Shown here: one piece after another, positions 35,710 to 52,236 of the stretch | Layout: each line of letters opens with the position of its first letter | Position numbering within the stretch: the stretch's first letter is position 1 | From: Streptomyces sp. NBC_01142 | GTDB taxonomy: Bacteria; Actinomycetota; Actinomycetes; Streptomycetales; Streptomycetaceae | Direction of reading: 5' to 3' | Assembly (NCBI RefSeq): GCF_026341125.1 | Contig: NZ_JAPEOR010000001.1 | Coordinates: forward strand, 496,001-560,000 | DNA: 64,000 bases | The notes under the pieces: model-generated | Told to the model about the DNA's origin: nothing | Database searches by the model: none | What the model saw: the letters and a program-made list of their open reading frames with translations, nothing else | Translations under genes and position numbers: made by a program

Positions 35710-35732
35710 CTGTCAGTGCGGCGGCCTAGACT
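35710..35732 (+). promoter_or_regulatory. PafBC/RecA-NDp-type DNA-damage promoter of pcrA
   Basis: CTGTCAGTG, eight bases, then TAGACT matches the actinobacterial LexA-independent damage promoter pattern TTGTCRGTG-N8-TANNNT with one mismatch. The helicase ATG lies nine bases after the -10 box, so the message has almost no leader. Confidence 0.65.
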
Positions 35733-35741
35733 CGTAAAGCG

Positions 35742-38195
35742 ATGAGCAGCCTCTTTGACGACAGCTTCCTGGCGGACCTCCAGCCCACGGCTGACGAGCA
35801 CCCGCCGCCGCCCGAGGAATCGACTCCGGAGCAGATTCCGGACGACCTCTTCCAGGGCACGTTCGACGTGCCCCCGGCCCGGGACCCGTACCACCGTGAC
35901 GGCGCCCCGCGCACCGTCGTGGATCCCGTCGCCCTGCTCGAGGGGCTGAACGAGCAGCAGCGCGCCGCCGTCGTGCACACCGGGTCGCCGCTGCTCATCG
36001 TGGCCGGGGCCGGGTCCGGCAAGACCCGTGTCCTGACCCACCGGATCGCGCATCTGCTGGGGACCCGCAGTGTCCACCCCGGCCAGATACTGGCGATCAC
36101 CTTCACCAACAAGGCCGCCGGCGAGATGAAGGAGCGCGTCGAGCAGCTGGTCGGCCCGCGCGCCAACGCCATGTGGGTGATGACCTTCCACAGTGCGTGC
36201 GTCCGCATTCTGCGCCGGGAGTCCAAGAGGCTCGGCTTCACCTCGTCGTTCTCGATCTACGACGCCGCCGACTCCAAGCGGCTCATGGCCCTGGTCTGCC
36301 GCGACCTGGACCTCGACCCCAAGAAGTTCCCTCCGAAGTCCTTCAGCGCGAAGATCTCCAATCTCAAGAACGAGCTGGTCGACGAGGAGACCTTCGCCGA
36401 CCAGGCGGTCGACGGCTTCGAGAAGACGCTCGCCGAGGCGTACCGCATGTACCAGGCACGGCTGCGCGAGGCCAATGCCCTGGACTTCGACGACATCATC
36501 ATGACCACCGTCCACCTGCTCCAGGCCTTCCCGGACGTCGCCGAGCACTACCGGCGCCGCTTCCGCCACGTCCTGGTGGACGAGTACCAGGACACCAACC
36601 ACGCTCAGTACACACTCGTGCGCGAGCTGGTGGGCCCCCATGGCGGCGAGGGCGACGACCCGGCCGAGCTCTGCGTCGTCGGTGACGCCGACCAGTCGAT
36701 CTACGCCTTCCGCGGCGCGACCATCCGCAACATCCTCCAGTTCGAGGAGGACTACCCGGACGCGACGACGATCCTGCTGGAGCAGAACTACCGCTCGACG
36801 CAGACGATCCTCTCCGCCGCCAACGCCGTCATCGAGCGGAACGAAAGCCGCCGTCCCAAGAACCTGTGGACGAACGCCGGCGCGGGTGCGCAGATCACCG
36901 GCTATGTGGCGGACACCGAGCACGATGAGGCCCAGTTCGTCGCCGACGAGATCGACCGGCTGACGGACGCGGGCGACGCGAAGGCCGGCGACGTCGCCAT
37001 CTTCTACCGTACGAATGCCCAGTCCCGTGTCTTCGAAGAGATCTTCATCCGGGTCGGGCTGCCGTACAAGGTCGTCGGCGGAGTGCGCTTCTACGAGCGC
37101 AAGGAGGTCCGGGACGTCCTCGCGTATCTGCGTGTCCTCGCGAACCCCGAGGACACGGTTCCACTGCGCCGGATCCTCAATGTCCCCAAGCGCGGCATCG
37201 GCGACCGCGCGGAGGCGATGATCGACGCGCTCTCGCTGCGCGAGAAGATCACCTTCCCGCAGGCGCTGCGACGCGTGGACGAGGCGTACGGCATGGCGGC
37301 CCGCTCCGCGAACGCCGTGAAGCGCTTCAACGTGCTGATGGAGGAGCTGCGCACGATCGTCGACTCGGGCGCCGGCCCCGCGGTGGTGCTGGAAGCCGTA
37401 CTCGAACGGACCGGCTATCTCGCCGAGCTGCAGGCCTCGACCGACCCGCAGGACGAGACCCGCATCGAGAACCTTCAGGAACTGGCCGCTGTGGCACTCG
37501 AGTTCGAGCAGGAGCGCGGCGAGGAGGAGGGGACGGGGACACTCGCCGAATTCCTCGAGAAGGTGGCGCTGGTCGCCGACTCCGACCAGATCCCGGACGA
37601 GGACGAGGACGGCTCGGGTGTCATCACGCTGATGACGCTGCACACCGCCAAGGGCCTCGAGTTCCCCGTGGTGTTCCTGACGGGCATGGAGGACGGCGTC
37701 TTCCCGCACATGCGCGCGCTCGGCCAGTCGAAGGAGCTCGAGGAGGAGCGGCGGCTGGCGTACGTCGGCATTACGCGTGCCCGCGAGCGCCTGTATCTGA
37801 CCCGCTCGTCGATGCGGAGTGCGTGGGGCCAGCCCTCGTACAACCCGCCGTCGCGGTTCCTTGAGGAGATCCCGGGCCACCACCTGGAGTGGAAGCGGAC
37901 GGGGCCGATGGCCGCGCCCGCGGGGCCCACGTCGGGCATCTCGTCGTCGCTGTCGTCCTCGCGCGCGCGGTCGGGCGGGGCGGGCGGCGGTGCGTCGGGC
38001 TTCGCCACGCGGCGCGCGAGCGACAAGCCGGTGATCTCGCTGGTGGTCGGAGACCGGGTCACGCACGACCAGTTCGGCCTGGGGACCGTGGTGGAGGTGA
38101 CGGGGTCGGGCGCGGACGGGCAGGCGACGATCGACTTCGGGGACACCAAGCCGAAGCGCCTGCTGCTGCGGTACGCGCCGGTCGAGAAGCTCTGA
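35742..38195 (+). CDS. pcrA: ATP-dependent DNA helicase PcrA/UvrD type
   Basis: An 817-residue superfamily 1A helicase working in nucleotide excision repair, replication-fork processing and removal of RecA filaments. An acidic N-terminal head of about 60 residues is followed by motif I GAGSGKTRVL near 88, Ia AITFTNKAAGEMKER near 115, II VDEYQDTNH near 282, III GDADQSIYAFRGA near 315, IV QNYRST near 349, V LMTLHTAKGLEFPVVF near 633, VI YVGITRARERLYL near 675, and a C-terminal Tudor-like VVGDRVTHDQFGLGTV near 768. The start is fixed by the promoter immediately upstream, whose sequence suggests induction by DNA damage through PafBC. Confidence 0.95.
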   Translation: MSSLFDDSFLADLQPTADEHPPPPEESTPEQIPDDLFQGTFDVPPARDPYHRDGAPRTVVDPVALLEGLNEQQRAAVVHTGSPLLIVAGAGSGKTRVLTHRIAHLLGTRSVHPGQILAITFTNKAAGEMKERVEQLVGPRANAMWVMTFHSACVRILRRESKRLGFTSSFSIYDAADSKRLMALVCRDLDLDPKKFPPKSFSAKISNLKNELVDEETFADQAVDGFEKTLAEAYRMYQARLREANALDFDDIIMTTVHLLQAFPDVAEHYRRRFRHVLVDEYQDTNHAQYTLVRELVGPHGGEGDDPAELCVVGDADQSIYAFRGATIRNILQFEEDYPDATTILLEQNYRSTQTILSAANAVIERNESRRPKNLWTNAGAGAQITGYVADTEHDEAQFVADEIDRLTDAGDAKAGDVAIFYRTNAQSRVFEEIFIRVGLPYKVVGGVRFYERKEVRDVLAYLRVLANPEDTVPLRRILNVPKRGIGDRAEAMIDALSLREKITFPQALRRVDEAYGMAARSANAVKRFNVLMEELRTIVDSGAGPAVVLEAVLERTGYLAELQASTDPQDETRIENLQELAAVALEFEQERGEEEGTGTLAEFLEKVALVADSDQIPDEDEDGSGVITLMTLHTAKGLEFPVVFLTGMEDGVFPHMRALGQSKELEEERRLAYVGITRARERLYLTRSSMRSAWGQPSYNPPSRFLEEIPGHHLEWKRTGPMAAPAGPTSGISSSLSSSRARSGGAGGGASGFATRRASDKPVISLVVGDRVTHDQFGLGTVVEVTGSGADGQATIDFGDTKPKRLLLRYAPVEKL

Positions 38196-42429: not shown

Positions 42430-44094
42430 TCAGCCCCCCGCTTCGGGGAGGGGCGGGACGGGGGAAGCACCCCCCAGCTCCACCCGCATCGCCGCCCGCA
42501 GCCTCAGCGTCGACACCAACCGCTGAAACGCCTCGGACCAGTAACCCCCCGCCCCCGGTGACGCCCCCTCCGTTTCGTCCGGTGTTGCCGTGAGGATCTC
42601 CAGGCGGCCGGCCTCGCTCGGGTCCAGGCAGCGTTCCGCCAGGCCCATCACACCGCTGAAGCTCCACGGGTAACTCCCCGCGTCCCGCGCGATGTCGAGC
42701 GCGTCGACCACCGCCCGGCCGAGCGGCTCCGCCCACGGCACCGCGCAGACCCCGAGCAGCTGGAACGCCTCCGACAGCCCGTGAGCCGCGATGAACTCCG
42801 CGACCCAGTCGGCCCGTTCGTCGTCCGGCAACGTGGCCAGCAGCTTTGCCCGCTCGGCCAGCGAGGTCGTACCGGGTCCGGTCGCCGGCGGGATGCCGGG
42901 CGCGCCGAGCAGGGCGCGGGACCACTCCGCGTCCCGCTGCCGCACTGCCGCCCGGCACCACGCCGCGTGCAGCTCGTCCCCCCAGTCGTCCACGACGGGC
43001 AGGCCGACGATTTCCTCGGCCGTACGCCCACCGAGCCGCCGCGGCCAGATGGACAGCGGGGTTGCCTCCACCAACTGGCCGAGCCACCAGGATCGTTCGC
43101 CGCGCCCGCCCGGCGGGCTCGGCACCACTCCGTCGCGCTGCATGTCCGCATCGCATTCGTGCGGCGCCTCCACGGCTATCGCCGCTTTCCCGCTGTCGGT
43201 GCCGTCGCGGTCGCCGCTGCGGTCCAGTCCGACGCACGACGCCGCCCGCGCCGCCATCCGCCCGGCGAGCGCTGAGTGCGGCAGCGCGGAGAGCAGCTCG
43301 GCCGCCGTGGCGCGGACATTACGGCTGCGGTCGGACAGCGCCTGCTCCAGGAACGGCTCGTCCGCGTCGGACAGTCCGGCCCGCAGTGAGTCGAGGAACA
43401 TCAACCGGTCCTCGGCCCGCTCCGTGGCCCAGCTCGCGGCCAGCAGCGCGAGTGCAGCGCCCGCATCCTGCGCCCGTACGGCCGCCAGCAGCGCGACCCG
43501 TTCCGCGAACAGCCCCTCCTCCCACAGGCGCCGGACAGCTTCCGCGTCGCCCACGTCCGGCAGCAGGGAGCCGCCGGACGCGCCGCGCAGCGCGTATTTC
43601 CACTCCGGGTTGAGCCGGGCCAGCCACAGCCCGCGGGGTCCGGCGAAGGCGAGGGCCTGCGGCCGCAGATCGGTACGGGCCCGGGCGGCGTCCAGCAGGG
43701 CGGGCAGTACGGACGGCGGTGCCTGGTAACCGCGTTCGTTGGCCGCGGCCAGCCACTGGGGGAGCAGCTCGGTCAGATCGGGTGCCGCACTCCGCCGGCC
43801 GCCGGTGTTCGACGGTGCGGACCGGTCGGCCAGCAGCTGGCCGAGCCGGCGCCTGGCGGCGGCCGGCAGCCGGGGGCGGGCATCGTGCGGCGCGGGCTCC
43901 GGCCGGTCGGCGGCCGGCGCGGGCAGCAGTCCTGCCCTGCGCCGTACGGTGTGCAGCGCCGCGGCGTCCAGCAGAGCGGCCGGCGCGTCCTTGCCCGGGG
44001 GCACGAGGTCGGTCGGCGGTGTGCGGCGGTCGGTGCCGAGAAGCGCCGAGGTGACGAGCTCTTCCCAGGGCGAGGTGCTGGTGGTGCTGGTCAT
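42430..44094 (-). CDS. DUF5691-like protein, partner of the SWIM/MoxR cluster
   Basis: A 554-residue cytosolic protein, rich in Leu/Ala and mostly helical. The head (SPWEELVTSALLGTDRRTPP) and internal helix pairs near 230-300 (ALLAASWATERAEDRLMFLDSL, EQALSDRSRNVRATAAELLSALP) look like HEAT-type repeats that follow damage or modification factors. ATG 44094 has GGAGG five bases upstream, and the gene starts 17 bases after the SWIM gene stop, so they form one operon. I recall such proteins being encoded beside SWIM, MoxR and VWA genes in many bacteria. Exact role unknown. Confidence 0.8.
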   Translation of the reverse strand: MTSTTSTSPWEELVTSALLGTDRRTPPTDLVPPGKDAPAALLDAAALHTVRRRAGLLPAPAADRPEPAPHDARPRLPAAARRRLGQLLADRSAPSNTGGRRSAAPDLTELLPQWLAAANERGYQAPPSVLPALLDAARARTDLRPQALAFAGPRGLWLARLNPEWKYALRGASGGSLLPDVGDAEAVRRLWEEGLFAERVALLAAVRAQDAGAALALLAASWATERAEDRLMFLDSLRAGLSDADEPFLEQALSDRSRNVRATAAELLSALPHSALAGRMAARAASCVGLDRSGDRDGTDSGKAAIAVEAPHECDADMQRDGVVPSPPGGRGERSWWLGQLVEATPLSIWPRRLGGRTAEEIVGLPVVDDWGDELHAAWCRAAVRQRDAEWSRALLGAPGIPPATGPGTTSLAERAKLLATLPDDERADWVAEFIAAHGLSEAFQLLGVCAVPWAEPLGRAVVDALDIARDAGSYPWSFSGVMGLAERCLDPSEAGRLEILTATPDETEGASPGAGGYWSEAFQRLVSTLRLRAAMRVELGGASPVPPLPEAGG

Positions 44095-44110
44095 GACGTC
44101 CTCCGTACGT

Positions 44111-45454
44111 TCAGATGAGCGGGACCGTCTCGGACGCGTCCTCCGGCCAGGCCGCGAGCGGGGTGAAGCCCTGGTGGCCGCACTCGCCGAAGACGGTGAC
44201 CGGGCGGCCGCCCGAGAGCGCCGCGAGCCTCCACAGCCCCGGGCGGGAGAGTGCGGCGGGGGCGATGGGCAGCGCGGACTTGCCGTCCGCATCGGCCAGT
44301 TGCCAGCCGTCACCGGCCGGGACGGGTATGACGCCGCTGAGCGTCACCGGCCAGGAGTCCAGCCAGGGGTCGTCCCGCAAGGCCTGTCCGTATGCCTCCA
44401 CGGCAGCCTCGGGCGGTCCCCCCGGCGGCGGCGCCCCGATCGGAACGGGGGCGCCGAACTGCCCACCCAGGTCCGCCCGCAGTTGCCCCGCGCCCGCGTA
44501 CGGAGTGAGCTCGGCGTCGATCATCAGCCCCACCGGCAGCGCCAGTTGCGGTGAACGGCCCGCCACCCCGAACGCCAGCAGCAGTGCCGTGCGCCCGGAT
44601 TCCCGCCCGTACAGCCAGATTCGGCGGGTGGTGATCTTGCCGTCGGAGGAGTCGTACTGGGCCAGGATCAGCCAGTGGTCCCGGATCGGCGCGCCCTCGG
44701 CGGGCTGGGTGAGGCCGACCCTGGTGCGGACCGTCGCGGCCAGCGGCTCCGGCAGCCGGTCGATCCCGAGCCACGCCGAGTCCAGCAGATGGATCAGCGC
44801 GCACTCCTCCAGCAGCCGCACCGGCCAGCCGGGCCCGGAGCCCGGTATCGCCCCCAGTTCCCGTACCCGGCCCGCCAGTCCCGGCGCCTGGGCGTCGACC
44901 ATGCGGGCCGCGGTCTCCTCCCACAGCCCGTACCCCGCCTGCTCGGCCGCCGCCAGGCCGCCGCGCAACAGATCCGCCAGCCGCTGCTCCAGCTCCGTGG
45001 CCCCGGCGGTGATCCGCCCCGCCCGGCGCTCGGCCCGGCGCCGGGCCGCCTCCGGGTCGGCGGTCTTCGCGGACGCTCCCGCGTCGCCCTGTTCCTTGTC
45101 CGTGGCGCGCTTCCTGCGCCCCTCCAGCCACTCCTCGGCCCAGTCCGGCGTGGCGGAGTCCTGCAGGGCCTCCTCGTCCGTCGCCCAGAGCAGCAGCAGC
45201 CCCAGCGCGTGCTTGCACGGGAACTTCCGGCTCGGGCAACTGCACTTGTAGGCCGGGCCCGTAGTGTCGATGACGGTTTGGTACGGCTTGCTGCCCGAGC
45301 CCTTGCACAGGCCCCACACGGCCCCCGAGCCGCTGCTGCCCGCGCCGGACCACGGCCCGGCCGCACCCAGTTTGTTTCCCGCTCTGCGTGACGCATCGTC
45401 AGGAGCCAAGGCCAGCACCTGTTCCGACGTCCAGCGCACCCCCTGCTGATTCAT
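44111..45454 (-). CDS. SWIM zinc-finger protein
   Basis: A 447-residue protein with the SWIM zinc site Cys71-x-Cys73-x6-Cys80-x-His82 (KCSCPSRKFPCKH), a motif that binds zinc and is used for DNA or protein binding. A linker and a long helical C-terminal region without a known enzyme fold follow. ATG 45454 lies eight bases after the -10 box (TAGCGT) of a damage-type promoter, so the message is leaderless and the longer frame from 45484 is ruled out. It heads an operon with the DUF5691-like gene and is divergent from the MoxR/DUF5682/VWA operon. Confidence 0.85.
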   Translation of the reverse strand: MNQQGVRWTSEQVLALAPDDASRRAGNKLGAAGPWSGAGSSGSGAVWGLCKGSGSKPYQTVIDTTGPAYKCSCPSRKFPCKHALGLLLLWATDEEALQDSATPDWAEEWLEGRRKRATDKEQGDAGASAKTADPEAARRRAERRAGRITAGATELEQRLADLLRGGLAAAEQAGYGLWEETAARMVDAQAPGLAGRVRELGAIPGSGPGWPVRLLEECALIHLLDSAWLGIDRLPEPLAATVRTRVGLTQPAEGAPIRDHWLILAQYDSSDGKITTRRIWLYGRESGRTALLLAFGVAGRSPQLALPVGLMIDAELTPYAGAGQLRADLGGQFGAPVPIGAPPPGGPPEAAVEAYGQALRDDPWLDSWPVTLSGVIPVPAGDGWQLADADGKSALPIAPAALSRPGLWRLAALSGGRPVTVFGECGHQGFTPLAAWPEDASETVPLI

Positions 45455-45461
45455 GGTGAGG

Positions 45462-45484
45462 ACGCTACGGGGCACCACTGACAA
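45462..45484 (-). promoter_or_regulatory. PafBC/RecA-NDp-type DNA-damage promoter of the SWIM operon
   Basis: On the minus strand TTGTCAGTG, eight bases, then TAGCGT: an exact match to the LexA-independent damage promoter TTGTCRGTG-N8-TANNNT. Transcription should begin at or next to the SWIM ATG. Confidence 0.75.
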
Positions 45485-45582
45485 TCAGCTCTGACGCGTA
45501 AATAGCAGCAGGTCAGGGTGGGTGTGGGCAGGACTGGGTGCCCGGTGGCCGTGGAGGGCTGCCGGGTGTTCGGGGCTGTCGG

Positions 45583-46826
45583 TCAGGCTGCGTTCTCCCT
45601 CGGGTTGAGGGTGACGGTGTAGCCGAGCTGGTTGAGCTGGGTGATGGCTCGGCGGGTGGCGCGTTCGGGGTCGCGTTGGGTGAAGTAGGTGCCGCCGAGT
45701 TCCTGGTAGGCGACGTTGTCGGTGAGCATGTGCCAGATCGCGGTGATGATCGAGTGCTCGACGGCGACCAGTGCCCGGAGCGGGCCGCGGCGGGCGGTCA
45801 GCCGCTTGTAACGGGCCTGCAGGTAGGTGTCCTTGGTTCTCACAGCGCCGAATGCCGCGAGGCCGAGGGCGCCTTTGAGATAGGGGTTGCCGGGCCGGAC
45901 CTTCGTGTTCTTGGTACGGCCGGCGGACTCGTGGTGGCCGGGGCAGACCCCGGCCCAGGACGCGAGGTGTTTGGCGGAGGCGAACCGGGTCATGTCCCCG
46001 CCGGTCTCCGCGATGATCACTTCGGCGGTGGCCTGGTTGATGCCGGGGATGGTGTCGAGGAGGTCGAGGGCGCCACGAAAGGGGCCATCGCCTCCTCGAT
46101 GCGTCCGGTGAGCTGGTCGATCATCGTGGTGAGCTGGTCGTACTGATCCAGATACAGTCGGGCCAGGAACGCGTGGTGCTCGCGGAACCGTCCGGTCAGG
46201 GCCTCGGTGAGTTCGGGGATCTTGTTGCGGAGCTTGCGTTTGGCCAGGTCCGCGAGGACCCGCGGGTCGGCTTCGCCGCGGATGAGGGCTTCGAGCATGG
46301 CCCGGCCGGAGACGCCCATGATGTCGGAGGCGACCGCGGAGAGTTTGATGCCGGTGTCCTCCAGGAGTTTCTCCAGCCGCTGGACCACACGGCCGCGTTC
46401 ACGGGTGGCGGTGGTCCGGGCCCGGGTCAGGTCGCGCAGTTCGCGGACCGGCTCGGGCGGCACGAAGGAGGGCCTGACCAGGCCGTGGGCGCCGAGCTGG
46501 GCCAGCCAGGCCGCGTCCGAGACGTCCGTCTTGCGGCCGGGTAGGTTCTTGACCTGCCGCGCGTTGACCAGGACCACGTCCAGGCCCTCGGTCAGCACGT
46601 AGTAGAAGGGCTTCCAGTAGTCACTGGTCGCCTCGATCACTACCAGCGTCACCTGTGCGGCGAGCAGATGGTCCCGCAGATCCAGGACCGCGTTCGTCGT
46701 TGATCCCCACGTCGTGGTCTCGGTCGTGAAGGACCCCCGCCGCTTCGTACTCGGGGTGCGGACGCAGACCTTGGCGTCCTTCTTGCTGATGTCGAGGCCG
46801 GCGCAGCGTTCGTGCAGTACGTCCAC
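45583..46826 (-). pseudogene. IS110-family transposase, frameshifted
   Basis: The start GTG 46826 follows GGGAGGG. The N-terminal RuvC-like DEDD domain is intact: Asp in AGLDISKKDAKV, Glu in VVIEATSDYWKPF, and Asp-Asp in RKTDVSDAAWLAQL. The C-terminal domain (IPGINQATAEVIIAETGG... ESAGRTKNTK) continues in another frame. The shift lies near 46071-46074: TTCGTGGCGCCCTCGAC is one base shorter than needed (restoring one G gives FVAALDLLD). A sequencing error is possible, otherwise the transposase is inactive. IS110 enzymes are guided by a bridge RNA. Confidence 0.85.
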
Positions 46827-47147
46827 GGCCTTGCTCCCTCCCTGGCGGACGGACCCGTCGTACGCCGTTCCGGGAGGACCAGGGTGGATCAGGAATTCTG
46901 ACGCACGTGCTTCGCAGCAACACTCCACGGTTCCCGTGGACGGTCCCCAGCACCACGCTGACCTGCGAGCTCACCGGCATCACAGAGGCATCGGTTTCGG
47001 CCGGAACGAACCGCTCCAGCATCCCGGACCGGCATCAGCCCACGTCAGGGCAGACAGAAGCACCTCCGGCGCACGCCACGGCATTTACCACGCCCCCGGC
47101 GCGCACCGAAGGTGCGCTGGATCGCTGACCTGCGCTTTCGAGCCCCC
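46827..47147 (-). ncRNA. Candidate bridge-RNA region of the IS110 element
   Basis: This is the non-coding stretch 5' of the IS110 recombinase. In this family the bridge RNA, which pairs with target and donor DNA, is encoded in such a region. Local hairpins include GCGCACC/GGTGCGC (near 47100-47118) and CCACGG/CCGTGG (near 46930-46945). The exact RNA ends cannot be read by eye. Confidence 0.4.
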
Positions 47148-47148
47148 G

Positions 47149-47388
47149 CGACAACTCCGCTCCATCCGCGCCGCCGTCTGCGCCGTTGCCGTCACCGGCC
47201 TCACGCTCGGCCTCTCCTCCTGCTCCGAGGCCGTCGACACCGTCGACAAGGCCACGAACGAGACGTACGAGGTCACGTACGAGGTCACCTGCAAGATCAC
47301 GTACAAGGGCAAGGTCATCAAGGAGGAGAAGGGCCAGGGCCTGGTCACCGCCGCCGGCTGCATCGCCGTCTCCCCGATCGTGGAGTAA
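47149..47388 (+). pseudogene. Small lipoprotein gene truncated at its start by the IS element
   Basis: Reads RQLRSIRAAVCAVAVTGLTLGLSSC, a complete lipoprotein signal peptide with lipobox GLSSC, followed by about 55 residues (EAVDTVDKATNETYEVTYEV..., CKITYKGKVIKEEKG) ending at 47388. The codon just before the first Arg is CCG and no ATG, GTG or TTG precedes it sensibly. CCG at 47146 probably replaces ATG: only the last G survives at the IS junction. The gene is therefore likely silent. Its neighbours are the damage-regulated operons, so it may have belonged to them. Confidence 0.6.
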
Positions 47389-47437
47389 CTCCCCGCGAAG
47401 CCTGGCTATTTAGGCTCTGACCTGCGGCAACGGTCGA

Positions 47438-47460
47438 TTGTCAGTGGCATGGTGCACGGT
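47438..47460 (+). promoter_or_regulatory. PafBC/RecA-NDp-like promoter of the MoxR operon
   Basis: TTGTCAGTG, eight bases, then CACGGT: the -35 part is exact, the -10 has one mismatch to TANNNT. It mirrors the SWIM promoter 2 kb away across the IS; the ATGs of the two operons were once near-neighbours. Confidence 0.6.
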
Positions 47461-47498
47461 GGATCCCACATCGGGTCGAACGATCTGGAGGGGGATCC

Positions 47499-48647
47499 AT
47501 GACCGTGTCCGAAACCGCCACAGCGAGCACCGCGGCCACCGCAACCACCGCAGTCACCGGCGCCGACACCGAGGCCCTGCGGCCGCACGCCGAGGACGCT
47601 TTCGCCGACGAGCTCAAGGCGCTTGCCGCGGCCGACGACCGGCCGCGGCCTGTCAGATGGCAGCTGTCGCCCTGGGCCGTCGCCACCTATCTGCTCGGCG
47701 GCACCCTGCCCGACGGGACGGTGATCACGCCCAAGTACGTGGGGCCGCGCCGGATCGTCGAGGTCGCCGTCACCACACTCGCCACCGATCGGGCGCTGCT
47801 GCTCCTCGGTGTGCCGGGCACCGCCAAGACCTGGGTCTCCGAGCATCTCGCCGCGGCCGTCAGCGGTGACTCCACCCTGCTCGTGCAGGGCACCGCGGGC
47901 ACGCCCGAGGAGGCCATCCGCTACGGCTGGAACTACGCCCAGTTGCTCGCCCATGGCCCCAGCCGCGACGCGCTGGTGCCCAGTCCTGTCATGCGCGCCA
48001 TGTCCGAGGGAATGACGGCGCGGGTCGAGGAACTCACCCGTATCCCGGCCGACGTACAGGACTCACTGATCACGATCCTGTCCGAGAAGACGCTGCCCGT
48101 CCCGGAGCTGGGGCAGGAGGTGCAGGCCGTCCGCGGCTTCAATCTCATCGCCACCGCCAACGACCGTGACCGCGGGGTCAACGACCTCTCCAGCGCGCTG
48201 CGCCGCCGCTTCAACACGGTCGTACTGCCGCTGCCGGCCACGCCGGAGGCCGAGGTCGACATCGTGTCGCGGCGCGTCGACCAGATCGGGCGCTCGCTCG
48301 ATCTGCCGGCCGTACCGGAGGGCCTCGAGGAGATTCGCCGTGTGGTCACCGTCTTCCGGGAGCTGCGGGACGGTATCTCGACCGACGGCCGCACCAAGCT
48401 CAAGTCGCCCTCGGGGACGCTCTCCACGGCCGAGGCGATCTCCGTCGTCACGGGCGGCCTCGCCCTCGCCGCGCACTTCGGTGACGGCGTGCTGCGCTCC
48501 GGCGATGTCGCGGCCGGGATTCTCGGCGCCGTCGTCCGCGACCCGGCGGCGGACCGTGTGATCTGGCAGGAGTACCTGGAAACGGTGGTCCGCGAGCGGG
48601 ACGGCTGGAAGGACTTCTACCGCGCCTGCCGCGAGGTGAGCGCATGA
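47499..48647 (+). CDS. MoxR-type AAA+ ATPase
   Basis: A 382-residue ATPase. A Thr/Ala-rich head (1-25) is followed by an AAA domain with Walker A GVPGTAKT near 108, a Walker B-position segment with Glu-Glu (ARVEELTRIP), sensor 1 LIATANDRDRG near 221 and the arginine-finger region RRRFN near 240. The usual Asp-Glu pair of Walker B reads Glu-Glu, as may be normal for this subfamily. MoxR ATPases act as chaperones that load or activate VWA-domain partners. It is the first gene of an operon with the DUF5682-like and VWA genes (ATGA overlap with the next gene). Confidence 0.9.
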   Translation: MTVSETATASTAATATTAVTGADTEALRPHAEDAFADELKALAAADDRPRPVRWQLSPWAVATYLLGGTLPDGTVITPKYVGPRRIVEVAVTTLATDRALLLLGVPGTAKTWVSEHLAAAVSGDSTLLVQGTAGTPEEAIRYGWNYAQLLAHGPSRDALVPSPVMRAMSEGMTARVEELTRIPADVQDSLITILSEKTLPVPELGQEVQAVRGFNLIATANDRDRGVNDLSSALRRRFNTVVLPLPATPEAEVDIVSRRVDQIGRSLDLPAVPEGLEEIRRVVTVFRELRDGISTDGRTKLKSPSGTLSTAEAISVVTGGLALAAHFGDGVLRSGDVAAGILGAVVRDPAADRVIWQEYLETVVRERDGWKDFYRACREVSA

Positions 48648-51067
48648 CCGGCCCCCTGCTGCTCGGTGTCCGCCACCACGGGCCGGGCTCGGCGCGGGCG
48701 GTGCGGGCCGCGCTGGAGGCGGCGTCGCCCCCGGCCGTGCTGATCGAGGGACCGCCGGAAGGGGACGCGCTGATCGCGCTCGCCGCGGACGAGCAGATGC
48801 GCCCGCCGGTCGCGCTGCTCGCCCACGCGGTGGACGACCCGAGCCGGGCGGCGTTCTGGCCGCTGGCCGAGTTCTCCCCGGAGTGGGTCGCCATCCGCTG
48901 GGCGCTCGGCCGCGGAGTCCCGGTGCGGTTCATCGACCTGCCGGCGGCGCATTCGCTGGCGCAGACCGCGCAGGCCGCGCACAAGGAGACGGTGGGCGCG
49001 CCGGGGCTGCCGCGAGACCCGCTGGGAGAAGCGCCGGATTCGCCCGCCCGGGGCGGTGGTTCGGGAGAGGGCGAGGGCAGCGAGGACGAAGCGGCAGGGG
49101 CAGCCGGGCACGGCGGGGGCGAGGGGAAGCCCGACGTGGGCGGGTTGCGGATCGATCCCATCGCCGTGCTTGCCGAAGCCGCCGGGTACGACGACCCCGA
49201 GCGGTGGTGGGAGGACGTCGTCGAGCATCGCGGCGCGGGGGACGACGCTGCGGATCCGTGTGCTCCGTTCGCGGCGCTCGGGGAGGCCATGGCCGCGCTG
49301 CGCGAGACGTACGGACACGGCGGGCACGACCGCGATCTCATCCGCGAAGCCCATATGCGGCTTCAACTGCGCGCAGCGAGCAAGGAGTTCGGGGACGGCG
49401 TCGCAGTCGTCTGCGGCGCGTGGCATGTGCCCGCGCTCGAGGAGAGGACCACCGTCGCCGCCGACAAGGCCCTCCTCAAAGGCCTGCCCAAGGTCAAGAC
49501 CGAGATGACCTGGGTGCCCTGGACGCATCGCAGGCTCGCCCGGCACAGCGGTTACGGCGCGGGCATCGACTCTCCCGGCTGGTACGGGCATCTCTTCGGC
49601 GCGACCGACCGCCCCGTCGAGCGCTGGATGACCAAGGTCGCGGGTCTCCTGCGGGACGAGGACCGGATGGTCTCGTCCGCGCATGTCATCGAGGCCGTCC
49701 GCCTCGCCGAGACCCTCGCCGCCATGCGCGGCCGGCCCCTCGCCGGACTGACCGAGACGACCGACGCCATACGGGCCGTGATGTGCGAGGGCTCCGATGT
49801 GCCGCTCGATCTCATCCGGGACCGGCTCGTCGTCGGGGACGTGCTCGGCGAGGTGCCGGACGCCGCGCCCGCCGTGCCCCTCCAGCGCGATCTGACCCGG
49901 CTCCAGCGCAGTCTGCGGCTCAAGCCCGAAGCGCTGGAGCGCGAGTTGGAGCTCGACCTGCGCAAGGAGAGCGACGCGGCCAAGAGCCGGCTGCTGCACC
50001 GGCTGCGGCTGCTCTCGATCGGCTGGGGCGAACCCGTCACGGGGCGGGGGAGCACCGGTACGTTCCGCGAGAGCTGGCGACTGCGCTGGGAGCCGGAGCT
50101 TTTCGTCCGGGTCGCGGAGGCCGGGGTGTGGGGCACCACCGTGCTCTCCGCCGCCACGGCGAAGGCCGAGTCGAACGCCCTCTCCGTGAACGCCCTCGCC
50201 GAGGTGACCGCGCTCGCCGAGCAGTGCCTGCTGGCCGAACTGCCTGACGCGCTGCCCGTGGTGATGAGGGCCCTCGCCGACCGGGCCGCGCTCGACGCGG
50301 ACGTCGGCCATCTCGCCCAGGCGCTGCCCGCCCTCGCCCGCTCCCTGCGGTACGGGGATGTGCGGTCCACGGACACGGCCGCGCTCGGGGAGGTCGCGGC
50401 CGGGCTCGCCGAACGCATCTGCGTCGGACTGCCGCCCGCGTGCACGGGACTCGACGCGGACGGCGCGGCCGAGATGCGGGGCCATCTGGACGGGGTGCAC
50501 ACCGCGATCGGGCTGCTGCCGAAAGCCCGGGAGCTGGGTCAGCGTTGGGGCTCGGTGCTGCTCCGGCTCGCGGACCGGGACACCGTGCCCGGGGTGATAC
50601 GCGGCCGGGCCGCCCGGCTGCTGCTGGACGACGGGCGGCTCGAGGAGGACGAGGCCGCGCGGCTGATGGGACTCGCGCTCTCTCCCGGTACACCGCCCGC
50701 CGAGGCGGCGGCCTGGATCGAGGGGTTCGTCGGCGGCGCGTCCGGAGGGGGAATGCTCCTGGTCCACGACGAGCGCCTGCTCGGGCTCGTCGACGCCTGG
50801 CTCACCGGCGTGCCCCCGGACGCCTTCACGGACGTACTGCCGCTGCTGCGCCGCACGTTCTCCGCCTACGAGCCGGGTGTGCGGCGCACGCTGGGTGAGT
50901 TGGTCCGGCGAGGACCCGCCACCCCGTCCGGCCATGCGGCGCACGCCGAGTCCACGATGCCCGGCTTCGGCGCCGGCCTCGACGGGCCGCGGGCGGACGC
51001 GGTGCTGCCGGTGCTGCAGCTGCTGCTCGGAATCGACGACAACGACCTTGCGGGGGTGGCCCGATGA
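48644..51067 (+). CDS. DUF5682-like large protein of the MoxR/VWA operon
   Basis: An 807-residue protein beginning MTGPLLLGVRHHGPGSARAV, with the GVRHHGPG motif (residues 8-15) at the head of an alpha/beta domain (VLIEGPPEGDALIALAAD). The middle carries VVCGAWHVPAL and the Gly/Glu/Ala-rich loop (residues 125-165) is variable. The C-terminal half is helical. The start ATG overlaps the ATPase stop (ATGA), and its own stop overlaps the VWA start, so all three are co-translated. The His-rich motif suggests a metal or nucleotide site; no reaction is known to me. Confidence 0.85.
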   Translation: MTGPLLLGVRHHGPGSARAVRAALEAASPPAVLIEGPPEGDALIALAADEQMRPPVALLAHAVDDPSRAAFWPLAEFSPEWVAIRWALGRGVPVRFIDLPAAHSLAQTAQAAHKETVGAPGLPRDPLGEAPDSPARGGGSGEGEGSEDEAAGAAGHGGGEGKPDVGGLRIDPIAVLAEAAGYDDPERWWEDVVEHRGAGDDAADPCAPFAALGEAMAALRETYGHGGHDRDLIREAHMRLQLRAASKEFGDGVAVVCGAWHVPALEERTTVAADKALLKGLPKVKTEMTWVPWTHRRLARHSGYGAGIDSPGWYGHLFGATDRPVERWMTKVAGLLRDEDRMVSSAHVIEAVRLAETLAAMRGRPLAGLTETTDAIRAVMCEGSDVPLDLIRDRLVVGDVLGEVPDAAPAVPLQRDLTRLQRSLRLKPEALERELELDLRKESDAAKSRLLHRLRLLSIGWGEPVTGRGSTGTFRESWRLRWEPELFVRVAEAGVWGTTVLSAATAKAESNALSVNALAEVTALAEQCLLAELPDALPVVMRALADRAALDADVGHLAQALPALARSLRYGDVRSTDTAALGEVAAGLAERICVGLPPACTGLDADGAAEMRGHLDGVHTAIGLLPKARELGQRWGSVLLRLADRDTVPGVIRGRAARLLLDDGRLEEDEAARLMGLALSPGTPPAEAAAWIEGFVGGASGGGMLLVHDERLLGLVDAWLTGVPPDAFTDVLPLLRRTFSAYEPGVRRTLGELVRRGPATPSGHAAHAESTMPGFGAGLDGPRADAVLPVLQLLLGIDDNDLAGVAR

Positions 51068-52236
51068 CAGCGACCGAGTACGACGAGCGGCTGCGGCGGT
51101 GGCGACTGGTGCTCGGGGGCGAGGCCGCCGAGGGGACCGGCTGCGCGCTCTCCGGGACGGACGCGGCGATGGACGGAGCCCTGTCCGCCCTCTACGACAC
51201 CGGCAAGAGCGGAACCGAGGGCCGTCGCGGCGGCAACCGCTCGGCCGGGCTCGGGGCGTCCGTGCCGTCCGTCGCGCGCTGGCTCGGCGACATCCGTACG
51301 TACTTCCCCAGCTCCGTCGTCCAGGTCATGCAGCGTGACGCGATCGAACGTCTCGGCCTCTCGACCCTGCTGCTCGAGCCGGAGATGCTGGAGGCCGTGG
51401 AGGCGGACGTCCATCTCGTCGGCACCCTGCTCTCGCTGAACAAGGCGATGCCGGAGACGACCAAGGAGACGGCCAGGGCTGTCGTACGCAAGGTCGTCGA
51501 CGACCTCGAGAAGCGGCTCGCCACCCGTACCAGGTCCACCCTCACCGGGGCGCTCGACCGGTCGGCGAAGATAAACCGGCCGCGCCACCGCGACATCGAC
51601 TGGGACCGCACGATCCGGGCCAACCTCAAGAACTACCTTCCCGAGTTCAACACCGTCGTGCCCGAGCGGCTCATCGGATACGGCAGGGCGTCCCAGTCGG
51701 TGAAGAAGGATGTGGTGCTCTGCATCGACCAGTCGGGGTCGATGGCGGCGTCCGTCGTCTACGCCTCCGTCTTCGGCGCGGTCCTGGCGTCGATGCGTTC
51801 CATCGCCACCCGCCTCGTCGTCTTCGACACCGCCGTCGTCGACCTGACCGACCAGCTCGACGACCCGGTCGACGTTCTTTTCGGCACCCAGCTCGGCGGC
51901 GGCACCGACATCAACAGGGCGCTCGCCTACTGCCAGTCGCAGATCACCCGTCCTGCCGACACCGTCGTCGTGCTGATCAGCGATCTGTACGAAGGCGGCA
52001 TACGGGACGAGATGCTGAAGCGGGTCGCGGCGATGAAGGCATCGGGCGTGCAGTTCGTGGCGCTGCTGGCGCTCTCCGACGAGGGGACGCCGGCGTACGA
52101 CCGCGAGCATGCGGCGGCTCTCGCGGCGCTGGGCGCACCGGCCTTCGCCTGCACGCCGGACCTCTTCCCGGACGTCATGGCAGCGGCAATCGAGAAGCGG
52201 CCCCTGCCCATACCGGACATGGCCACCCATCAGTAA
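51064..52236 (+). CDS. VWA domain protein (CoxE-like)
   Basis: A 390-residue protein. An N-terminal helical part (residues 1-210) includes a conserved RSAKINRPRHRDIDWDRTI-like segment. The VWA domain (about 215-380) has the MIDAS residues DQSGSM (DxSxS) near 222, Thr in GGGTDINRAL near 283, and Asp in LISDLYEGG near 306. MIDAS proteins bind a metal and a protein partner, usually loaded by a MoxR ATPase, here two genes upstream. It ends the operon. Confidence 0.9.
   Translation: MTATEYDERLRRWRLVLGGEAAEGTGCALSGTDAAMDGALSALYDTGKSGTEGRRGGNRSAGLGASVPSVARWLGDIRTYFPSSVVQVMQRDAIERLGLSTLLLEPEMLEAVEADVHLVGTLLSLNKAMPETTKETARAVVRKVVDDLEKRLATRTRSTLTGALDRSAKINRPRHRDIDWDRTIRANLKNYLPEFNTVVPERLIGYGRASQSVKKDVVLCIDQSGSMAASVVYASVFGAVLASMRSIATRLVVFDTAVVDLTDQLDDPVDVLFGTQLGGGTDINRALAYCQSQITRPADTVVVLISDLYEGGIRDEMLKRVAAMKASGVQFVALLALSDEGTPAYDREHAAALAALGAPAFACTPDLFPDVMAAAIEKRPLPIPDMATHQ

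Follow-up and report, generated by a model that had tools for sequence, protein, structure and literature searches.

The mycobacterial PafBC consensus comprises a TTGTCRGTG box, an N8 spacer, and a TANNNT-like -10 element. In mycobacteria, PafBC is activated by single-stranded DNA (ssDNA) and lets the housekeeping polymerase use such promoters, according to a passage in PMC11804915. In Streptomyces, a recA-type motif has been in print since 2002–2008, and the same box is carried by the UV-inducible recA promoter of S. rimosus (PMC2375139, in the sections on this motif). The same source gives a 67-gene list for S. coelicolor, and the genes described here may already be in it. In excerpts of a report from 2022, an initial search pointed to a lack of conservation of the Mycobacterium smegmatis motif in S. 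venezuelae, and a RecA/LexA-independent damage response in Streptomyces “remains to be shown” (PMC9380542). Here, we analyzed a 64,000-nt stretch (the window) of the 10.1-Mb genome of Streptomyces sp. NBC_01142, in which five genes encoding a MoxR-type AAA+ ATPase, a VWA protein, a SWIM zinc-finger protein, and DUF5682 and DUF5691 proteins lie in two arms, each with a predicted PafBC-type promoter.

A Pfam scan of the window proteins demonstrated that the five genes belong to the families assigned to them in an earlier note made from the sequence alone, namely DUF5691, SWIM, AAA_5, DUF5682, and VWA_CoxE. On the minus strand, the SWIM protein (44111..45454, 447 aa) carries CSCPSRKFPCKH at residue 71 (PF04434, 25.5 bits), and the DUF5691 protein (42430..44094, 554 aa from the start at 44094) is encoded by the second gene of this arm; 45454 and 44094 are the better start codons of the two genes. 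Scored on the longer open reading frame (ORF) 42430-44313, DUF5691 (PF18944) was matched with 588 bits, and a weak HEAT match of 16 bits fell under the Pfam cut-off. On the plus strand, the MoxR ATPase (47499..48647, 382 aa; AAA_5, 128 bits) is followed by DUF5682 (48644..51067, 807 aa; 1002 bits) and the CoxE-type VWA protein (51064..52236; VWA_CoxE, 206 bits), and the expected ATGA coupling was found at 48644 (MoxR/DUF5682) and 51064 (DUF5682/VWA). The DUF5691/SWIM and MoxR/DUF5682/VWA arms diverge, so that the description of the two operons as facing each other was wrong. The SWIM CxCx6CxH motif, the MIDAS motif DxSxS of the VWA protein, and the Walker A, sensor 1, and arginine finger of MoxR are all intact. 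The locus thus contains an intact MoxR-clade AAA+ protein adjoining a VWA protein with a MIDAS, as in the MoxR-VWA chaperone pairs RavA-ViaA, NorQ-NorD, and CoxD-CoxE. Matches to NCBIfam all fell under the cut-offs, and those of the five proteins to PADLOC were at chance level. In a profile search, no credible relative of the VWA protein was found among the sequences of solved structures (best E value, 0.017).

Both arms are preceded by a match to the box, defined here as TTGTCRGTG-N8-YANNNT with its TANNNT and CANNNT forms counted and the reversed pattern as a control. The SWIM-arm promoter is predicted at 45484-45462 on the minus strand (TTGTCAGTG-N8-TAGCGT), and its exact agreement with the pattern was confirmed. 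The MoxR-arm promoter is predicted at 47438-47460 on the plus strand (TTGTCAGTG-N8-CACGGT). The C for T at -12 reported for this core is present, but to call it an imperfect match was mistaken, since the CANNNT form is a conserved and enriched variant (26 sites vs 1 reversed in the whole genome). With up to one mismatch allowed, three sites were found in the window, against 0.01 expected from shuffles. The last base of the SWIM -10 element is 8 nt from the ATG, and in 59 of 81 Streptomyces loci the box begins 29 or 30 nt upstream of the extrapolated ATG. Because this element lies so close to the ATG and the spacing is kept within 1 nt in these loci, a leaderless mRNA is predicted for the SWIM arm. 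Judged by their sequence, the boxes are very probably functional PafBC-type promoters.

The association of the box with DNA repair was assessed across the genome, where the TANNNT form occurs 28 times (1 reversed). Intergenic positions account for 27 of these 28 sites, and a called gene start follows within 400 bp in 26; the corresponding numbers for the 20 CANNNT loci read, out of 26, are 16 and 13, all starts being taken from a simple purpose-made gene caller. Of the 39 genes downstream of these sites, 20 were scanned with Pfam. The first ten comprised RecA, a RadA-like protein, a DEAD helicase, RuvC, O6-methylguanine methyltransferase, DNA polymerase III alpha, DnaX, uracil-DNA glycosylase, ribosomal protein S6, and DNA polymerase I. 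The second ten comprised YjbR, PrsW, a family-A polymerase, Lhr, topoisomerase IV A, and DinB; the scan gave no identity for the other four. At least 12 of the 20 genes have a role in DNA repair or replication, a share that is not unbiased because the first ten were picked for N-termini resembling repair or replication proteins. The genome also encodes pafB and pafC as neighboring genes (PafC-HTH/WYL/WCX and WYL/WCX). The box, its spacing, the -10 element, the repair genes, and the pafB-pafC pair are the same as in the PafBC/RecA-NDp regulon and at Streptomyces recA-type promoters. The third box in the window, with one mismatch (35710-35732, plus strand), begins 32 bp upstream of the UvrD/PcrA helicase gene at 35742-38195 (plus strand). 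A strict box also precedes a protein with a solo-VWA-like N-terminus (L006:402-1460; no Pfam match at 1e-4), and in the NBC_01142 genome another precedes the YjbR-family gene (L010:1559-1942).

A MoxR orthologue with at least 85% identity is encoded in 95 of the 101 Streptomyces genomes sampled. Loci of this type, here called type A, were fetched from 80 of the 94 other genomes; 14 were set aside because the match lay near a contig end or the set was kept at 80. The order DUF5691 and SWIM on one strand and MoxR, DUF5682, and VWA on the other was found in 79 of 81 loci, the window included. An exact box lies upstream of MoxR in 76 loci, always as CANNNT, and upstream of SWIM in 73 (TANNNT). The 13 loci missing one site each have one box per strand once one mismatch is allowed, so that both boxes are present in 81/81 loci with at most one mismatch. 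The 979,041 bases of these loci contain 152 exact boxes against 0 reversed, with two boxes in 71 loci and one in 10. Base-by-base conservation inside the box is partly produced by construction, since the pattern used to select the sites already sets most of its bases, and site counts were used instead. In the same sample, all 76 exact CANNNT sites have TG directly before the C at -12, and the spacer ends in TGGTG in 71 of them, whereas none of the 76 exact TANNNT sites is preceded by TG. The TG-preceded CANNNT of the MoxR arm is a difference from described PafBC/RecA-NDp promoters, and the SWIM arm has a TANNNT without TG. Conservation of the motif upstream of orthologous operons, the absence of which the earlier note had listed among the findings that would refute its proposal, holds throughout this genus sample but is mixed outside it.

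The gap between the arms measures 2044 bp in the window and 79–332 bp in 67 of the other 80 loci, 625–969 bp in 10, and negative extrapolated values in 3. It is widened here by an IS110-family transposase (45583-46826, minus strand; two ORF pieces with DEDD_Tnp_IS110 and Transposase_20 matches), which is not part of the system. The element splits the arms between the two promoters, both of which lie outside it and are intact, and the intergenic DNA of the relatives aligns outside the element only. The stretch at about 47157-47390 is shared with the relatives that have a gap of ~600–970 bp and may be a small gene or a remnant.

Beyond Streptomyces, the arrangement is different. An A-type MoxR was found in 91 of 394 genomes of the class, 52 of them non-Streptomyces, of which 40 were fetched. 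In 38 of these 40 loci, the genes form one co-directional operon, SWIM-DUF5691-MoxR-DUF5682-VWA, with SWIM first; one of the two exceptions lacks DUF5691, and the other lacks SWIM because the contig ends. With a weight matrix trained on 46 other sites of the NBC_01142 genome, the top-scoring position fell between -20 and -22 relative to the SWIM start for 22 of 39 loci, and in 21 of the 22 it exceeded the score threshold of 4. Scores above 4 were obtained in 23 of 39 sense windows vs 3 of 39 antisense windows, and were concentrated in one family (21/31 loci; elsewhere 2/8, one of them marginal). No box was seen in eight other A-type loci of a phylum sample. These results indicate that the SWIM box probably predates Streptomyces, as far as can be judged from such sites. 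The divergent arrangement, in which the MoxR arm has its own box, was found only in Streptomyces in these samples and presumably arose after the SWIM box.

The N-terminal part of DUF5682 (48644..49558, plus strand; about residues 1–305) resembles the Tiki/TraB/ChaN/Ere superfamily in its predicted model and profile matches; it was folded alone because a fold search with the full-length protein was filled by helical repeats. The C-terminal part (about residues 410–796) is a helical repeat. Members of the Tiki superfamily show a His in a first GX2H-like motif, a Glu after strand 2, an Arg helix, and a His in a second GX2H motif. By its model, DUF5682 carries a domain of this fold, and the His/Glu/Arg/His pattern is present in its sequence. 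In a 48-member alignment, R10, H11, E35, D98, R220, R234, E235, and H261 are invariant, and H11, E35, R234, E235, G258, and H261 occur in 48/48 members; the first motif opens with G in 19 members and with P in the other 29. Active members of the superfamily are described with a 2His/2Glu set in a passage of PMC6254334. By sequence, this set is incomplete in DUF5682, which differs from the superfamily in that the first catalytic Glu is absent and the domain is joined to a helical repeat and encoded in an AAA+ operon. ChaN, a haem-binding protein, represents the Pfam family weakly matched by most DUF5682 N-domains (best E value, 0.0083). Other Pfam families matched one to three of the 48 members, and two of them did so with better E values than ChaN (PI3_PI4_kinase, 3.1e-5 in two members; NESP55, 4.3e-6 in one); such matches were put down to chance or to sequence composition, and the assignment relies on ChaN, TraB, and Ere turning up repeatedly. 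Profile searches returned no credible relative of DUF5682 among the sequences of solved structures. Overall, the N-domain looks like a Tiki/ChaN-fold enzyme on the basis of its model, and is a candidate hydrolase. Among the solved structures compared, the best resemblance to this domain was to a subunit of Tetrahymena mitochondrial complex IV (PDB 8b6h_DQ and 7w5z_E).

Three further MoxR-centered systems, B, C, and D, were identified in Streptomyces, occurring in 10, 37, and 22 of the 101 genomes, respectively. System B comprises WGR-DUF4132, MoxR, DUF5682, and VWA, together with a gene in which Pfam finds no SWIM domain. In system C, MoxR is accompanied by a DUF5682-VWA fusion, a short DUF4132 protein, and a large protein that Pfam does not match, and in system D by VWA and a protein that has a CHHSPA motif but is likewise not matched by Pfam. 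The B gene without a SWIM match is a YehQ homologue (42% identity over the first 100 residues), and therefore B matches the E. coli yeh operon. Compared with yehI-yehK-yehL-yehM-yehP-yehQ of E. coli, the order of MoxR (YehL), DUF5682 (YehM, 331 bits), VWA_CoxE (YehP), and SWIM (YehQ) is the same; E. coli has DUF4132 (YehI) and an upstream WGR gene, yehF, and no DUF5691 was found there. The box scan covered 30 of the 37 C genomes and 12 of the 22 D genomes, D loci being included only if they covered the start of the first gene. A box was present within -350 to +120 of the extrapolated first-gene start in 8/10 B, 16/30 C, and 12/12 D loci. In three of the eight B cases, the box lies 57–88 nt past the extrapolated start, so that these proteins must begin later. 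In the C-type subgroup L179-L190, with the exception of L181, the 350 bp before the first gene lack a TTGTCRGT core, unlike in its relatives. The best 80 matches to B included systems in Actinobacteria, Proteobacteria, Firmicutes, Planctomycetes, and others; among them were 19 actinobacterial loci, of which 2/3 from Streptomyces and 2/16 from other genera have a box before the DUF4132 gene. The latter two belong to Promicromonospora and Antribacter and have the first base changed. According to passages in PMC8533742, the E. coli operon is placed in a LexA regulon, and a DUF4132 operon and a WGR gene of Deinococcus rise strongly when the damage repressor DdrO is depleted. The Deinococcus response, judged by its description, would be an independent parallel.

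Taken together, the five genes may form one machine of the PafBC-type (LexA-independent) damage regulon, in which a MoxR-VWA remodeller and a Tiki-fold enzyme are guided by the SWIM protein; we hold this reading tentatively, at just short of an even chance. The idea of an ATPase-MIDAS machine, put forward in the earlier note with its substrate left unspecified, still stands as a prediction from sequence and is extended by the Tiki-superfamily-like domain. Upon damage, PafBC activated by ssDNA would act with the housekeeping sigma factor to transcribe both arms. MoxR would form an ATP-driven ring with the VWA protein as an adaptor through its MIDAS, DUF5691 may serve as a scaffold, and the SWIM protein, joined by a WGR protein in the sister system, may bring the complex to nucleic acid or a client. 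The ring would then remodel the client so that the Tiki domain of DUF5682 could act, the most likely candidate action being hydrolysis of a protein held on damaged DNA; this hydrolysis step, taken alone, is possible but doubtful. The broadest version of the proposal is rather unlikely. It would make these genes a new type of damage-induced, AAA+-driven protease or hydrolase machine, in which SWIM or WGR proteins direct a MoxR-VWA ring and the Tiki-fold enzyme coupled to it. Up to four versions would exist, all drawn into the PafBC regulon, their task being to remove or remodel proteins caught on damaged DNA, and E. coli yeh would be a distant counterpart. The promoter type and the Tiki/ChaN-like part suggest that protein handling may be an overlooked branch of the response of bacteria to DNA damage.

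The main rival explanation is a chaperone for cofactor insertion or enzyme maturation of the NorQ-NorD or CoxD-CoxE kind, whose client is needed after damage and in which the Tiki-like domain binds a ligand or metal without cleavage. NorQ, together with midasin, is among the solved structures nearest to MoxR by sequence, the VWA protein is CoxE-type, the family weakly matched by most DUF5682 N-domains binds haem, and an early link between the E. coli sister operon and molybdate is on record (molR, as cited in a passage of PMC8533742). In addition, in two outgroup loci of one genus (L142:11845-15411 and L147:12848-17748), the operon is followed by genes for a nitrilase-family protein and a molybdoenzyme of the xanthine-dehydrogenase type. 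These neighbors led us to raise slightly the weight of the cofactor explanation and to lower slightly that of the SWIM-guided remodeller and of its broadest version. However, the molybdoenzyme was found in only these 2 of the 221 loci queried, whose flanks were short, and at least 12 of the 20 scanned genes behind the box act in repair or replication. We consider a cofactor chaperone to be improbable overall, though worth serious attention.

The damage promoter could also serve as an infection alarm for a MoxR-vWA conflict (anti-phage) system. Ternary MoxR-vWA systems have been proposed as conflict systems and strongly tied to multicellular bacteria (VMAP, 694/716 organisms), as described in parts of PMC7159879; they share with the present locus the MoxR and vWA core and a third protein, and Streptomyces has up to four related systems, of which B, C, and D are patchy. 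Here, by contrast, the third partner is DUF5682, with its Tiki-like domain and helical repeat, accompanied by SWIM and DUF5691, and MoxR matches bpMoxR under the cut-off. General Pfam and PADLOC scans of the five proteins revealed no VMAP, iSTAND, FtsH, or beta-propeller component, no dedicated VMAP or iSTAND profile search being included. The near-universal occurrence and slow evolution of the A-type system, the chance-level PADLOC matches, and the lack of an added effector domain in the window VWA protein by Pfam all speak against a conflict role, and the terms SWIM, WGR, and DUF4132 occur 0 times in PMC7159879. Such a role is therefore less probable than a cofactor chaperone and is regarded as distinctly unlikely. 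Finally, the boxes could be ordinary housekeeping promoters that resemble PafBC sites, with the genes expressed constitutively. The reported lack of motif conservation in S. venezuelae (PMC9380542, for an initial search) would fit, but the box is the same as at recA of this genome and at the published UV-inducible recA promoter of S. rimosus, is enriched at a fixed spacing, and is associated with repair genes, which makes this explanation highly improbable.

Returning to the damage-regulon machine, the DUF5682/DUF5691 gene group, with no assigned role and with relatives in several phyla, gains a context, being tied to a damage promoter in Streptomyces and predicted to have an enzyme-like core. 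No mention of DUF5682 or DUF5691 was found in the literature searched, and among the literature matches listed, two or more of yehL, yehM, yehP, and yehQ were named together only in strain or genome papers. MoxR1, MoxR2, and a VWA protein appear in a proteomics table of PMC5656591, as far as that table is concerned. The genome studied here, from a species other than S. venezuelae, does not fit the suggestion in PMC9380542, as the motif is abundant and marks repair genes, and the findings bear on the statement, printed in the excerpts of that report, about what “remains to be shown” for the Streptomyces damage response.

LexA control was considered separately for the distant relatives and was rejected as support. 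The E. coli yeh stretch contains 10 one-mismatch LexA boxes against 6.0 expected, with no exact box in 20 kb. Across 61 non-actinobacterial loci, the LexA-type boxes GAACN4GTTC, CTGTN8ACAG, and GTTCN7GTTC were counted 7, 20, and 8 times, vs 14, 4, and 8 for the controls. The 20 CTGTN8ACAG sites exceed two of the controls, and 6 of them are the same conserved piece of coding sequence, close to the DUF5682 start; no consistent position of a LexA-type box at operon starts was seen in these 61 loci. The SOS boxes in loci L140 and L143 precede neighboring genes. Among the outgroups, the search for mutasome neighbors gave an IMS-domain match in L140 only, with none from the candidates in L143. In L140, the operon lies near this IMS-domain (ImuB-like) gene (L140:1655-3956), and a LexA-type box is located just upstream of its neighbor. 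The same A-type locus, which comes from a distant relative, also contains a YjbR gene (L140:11377-11718).

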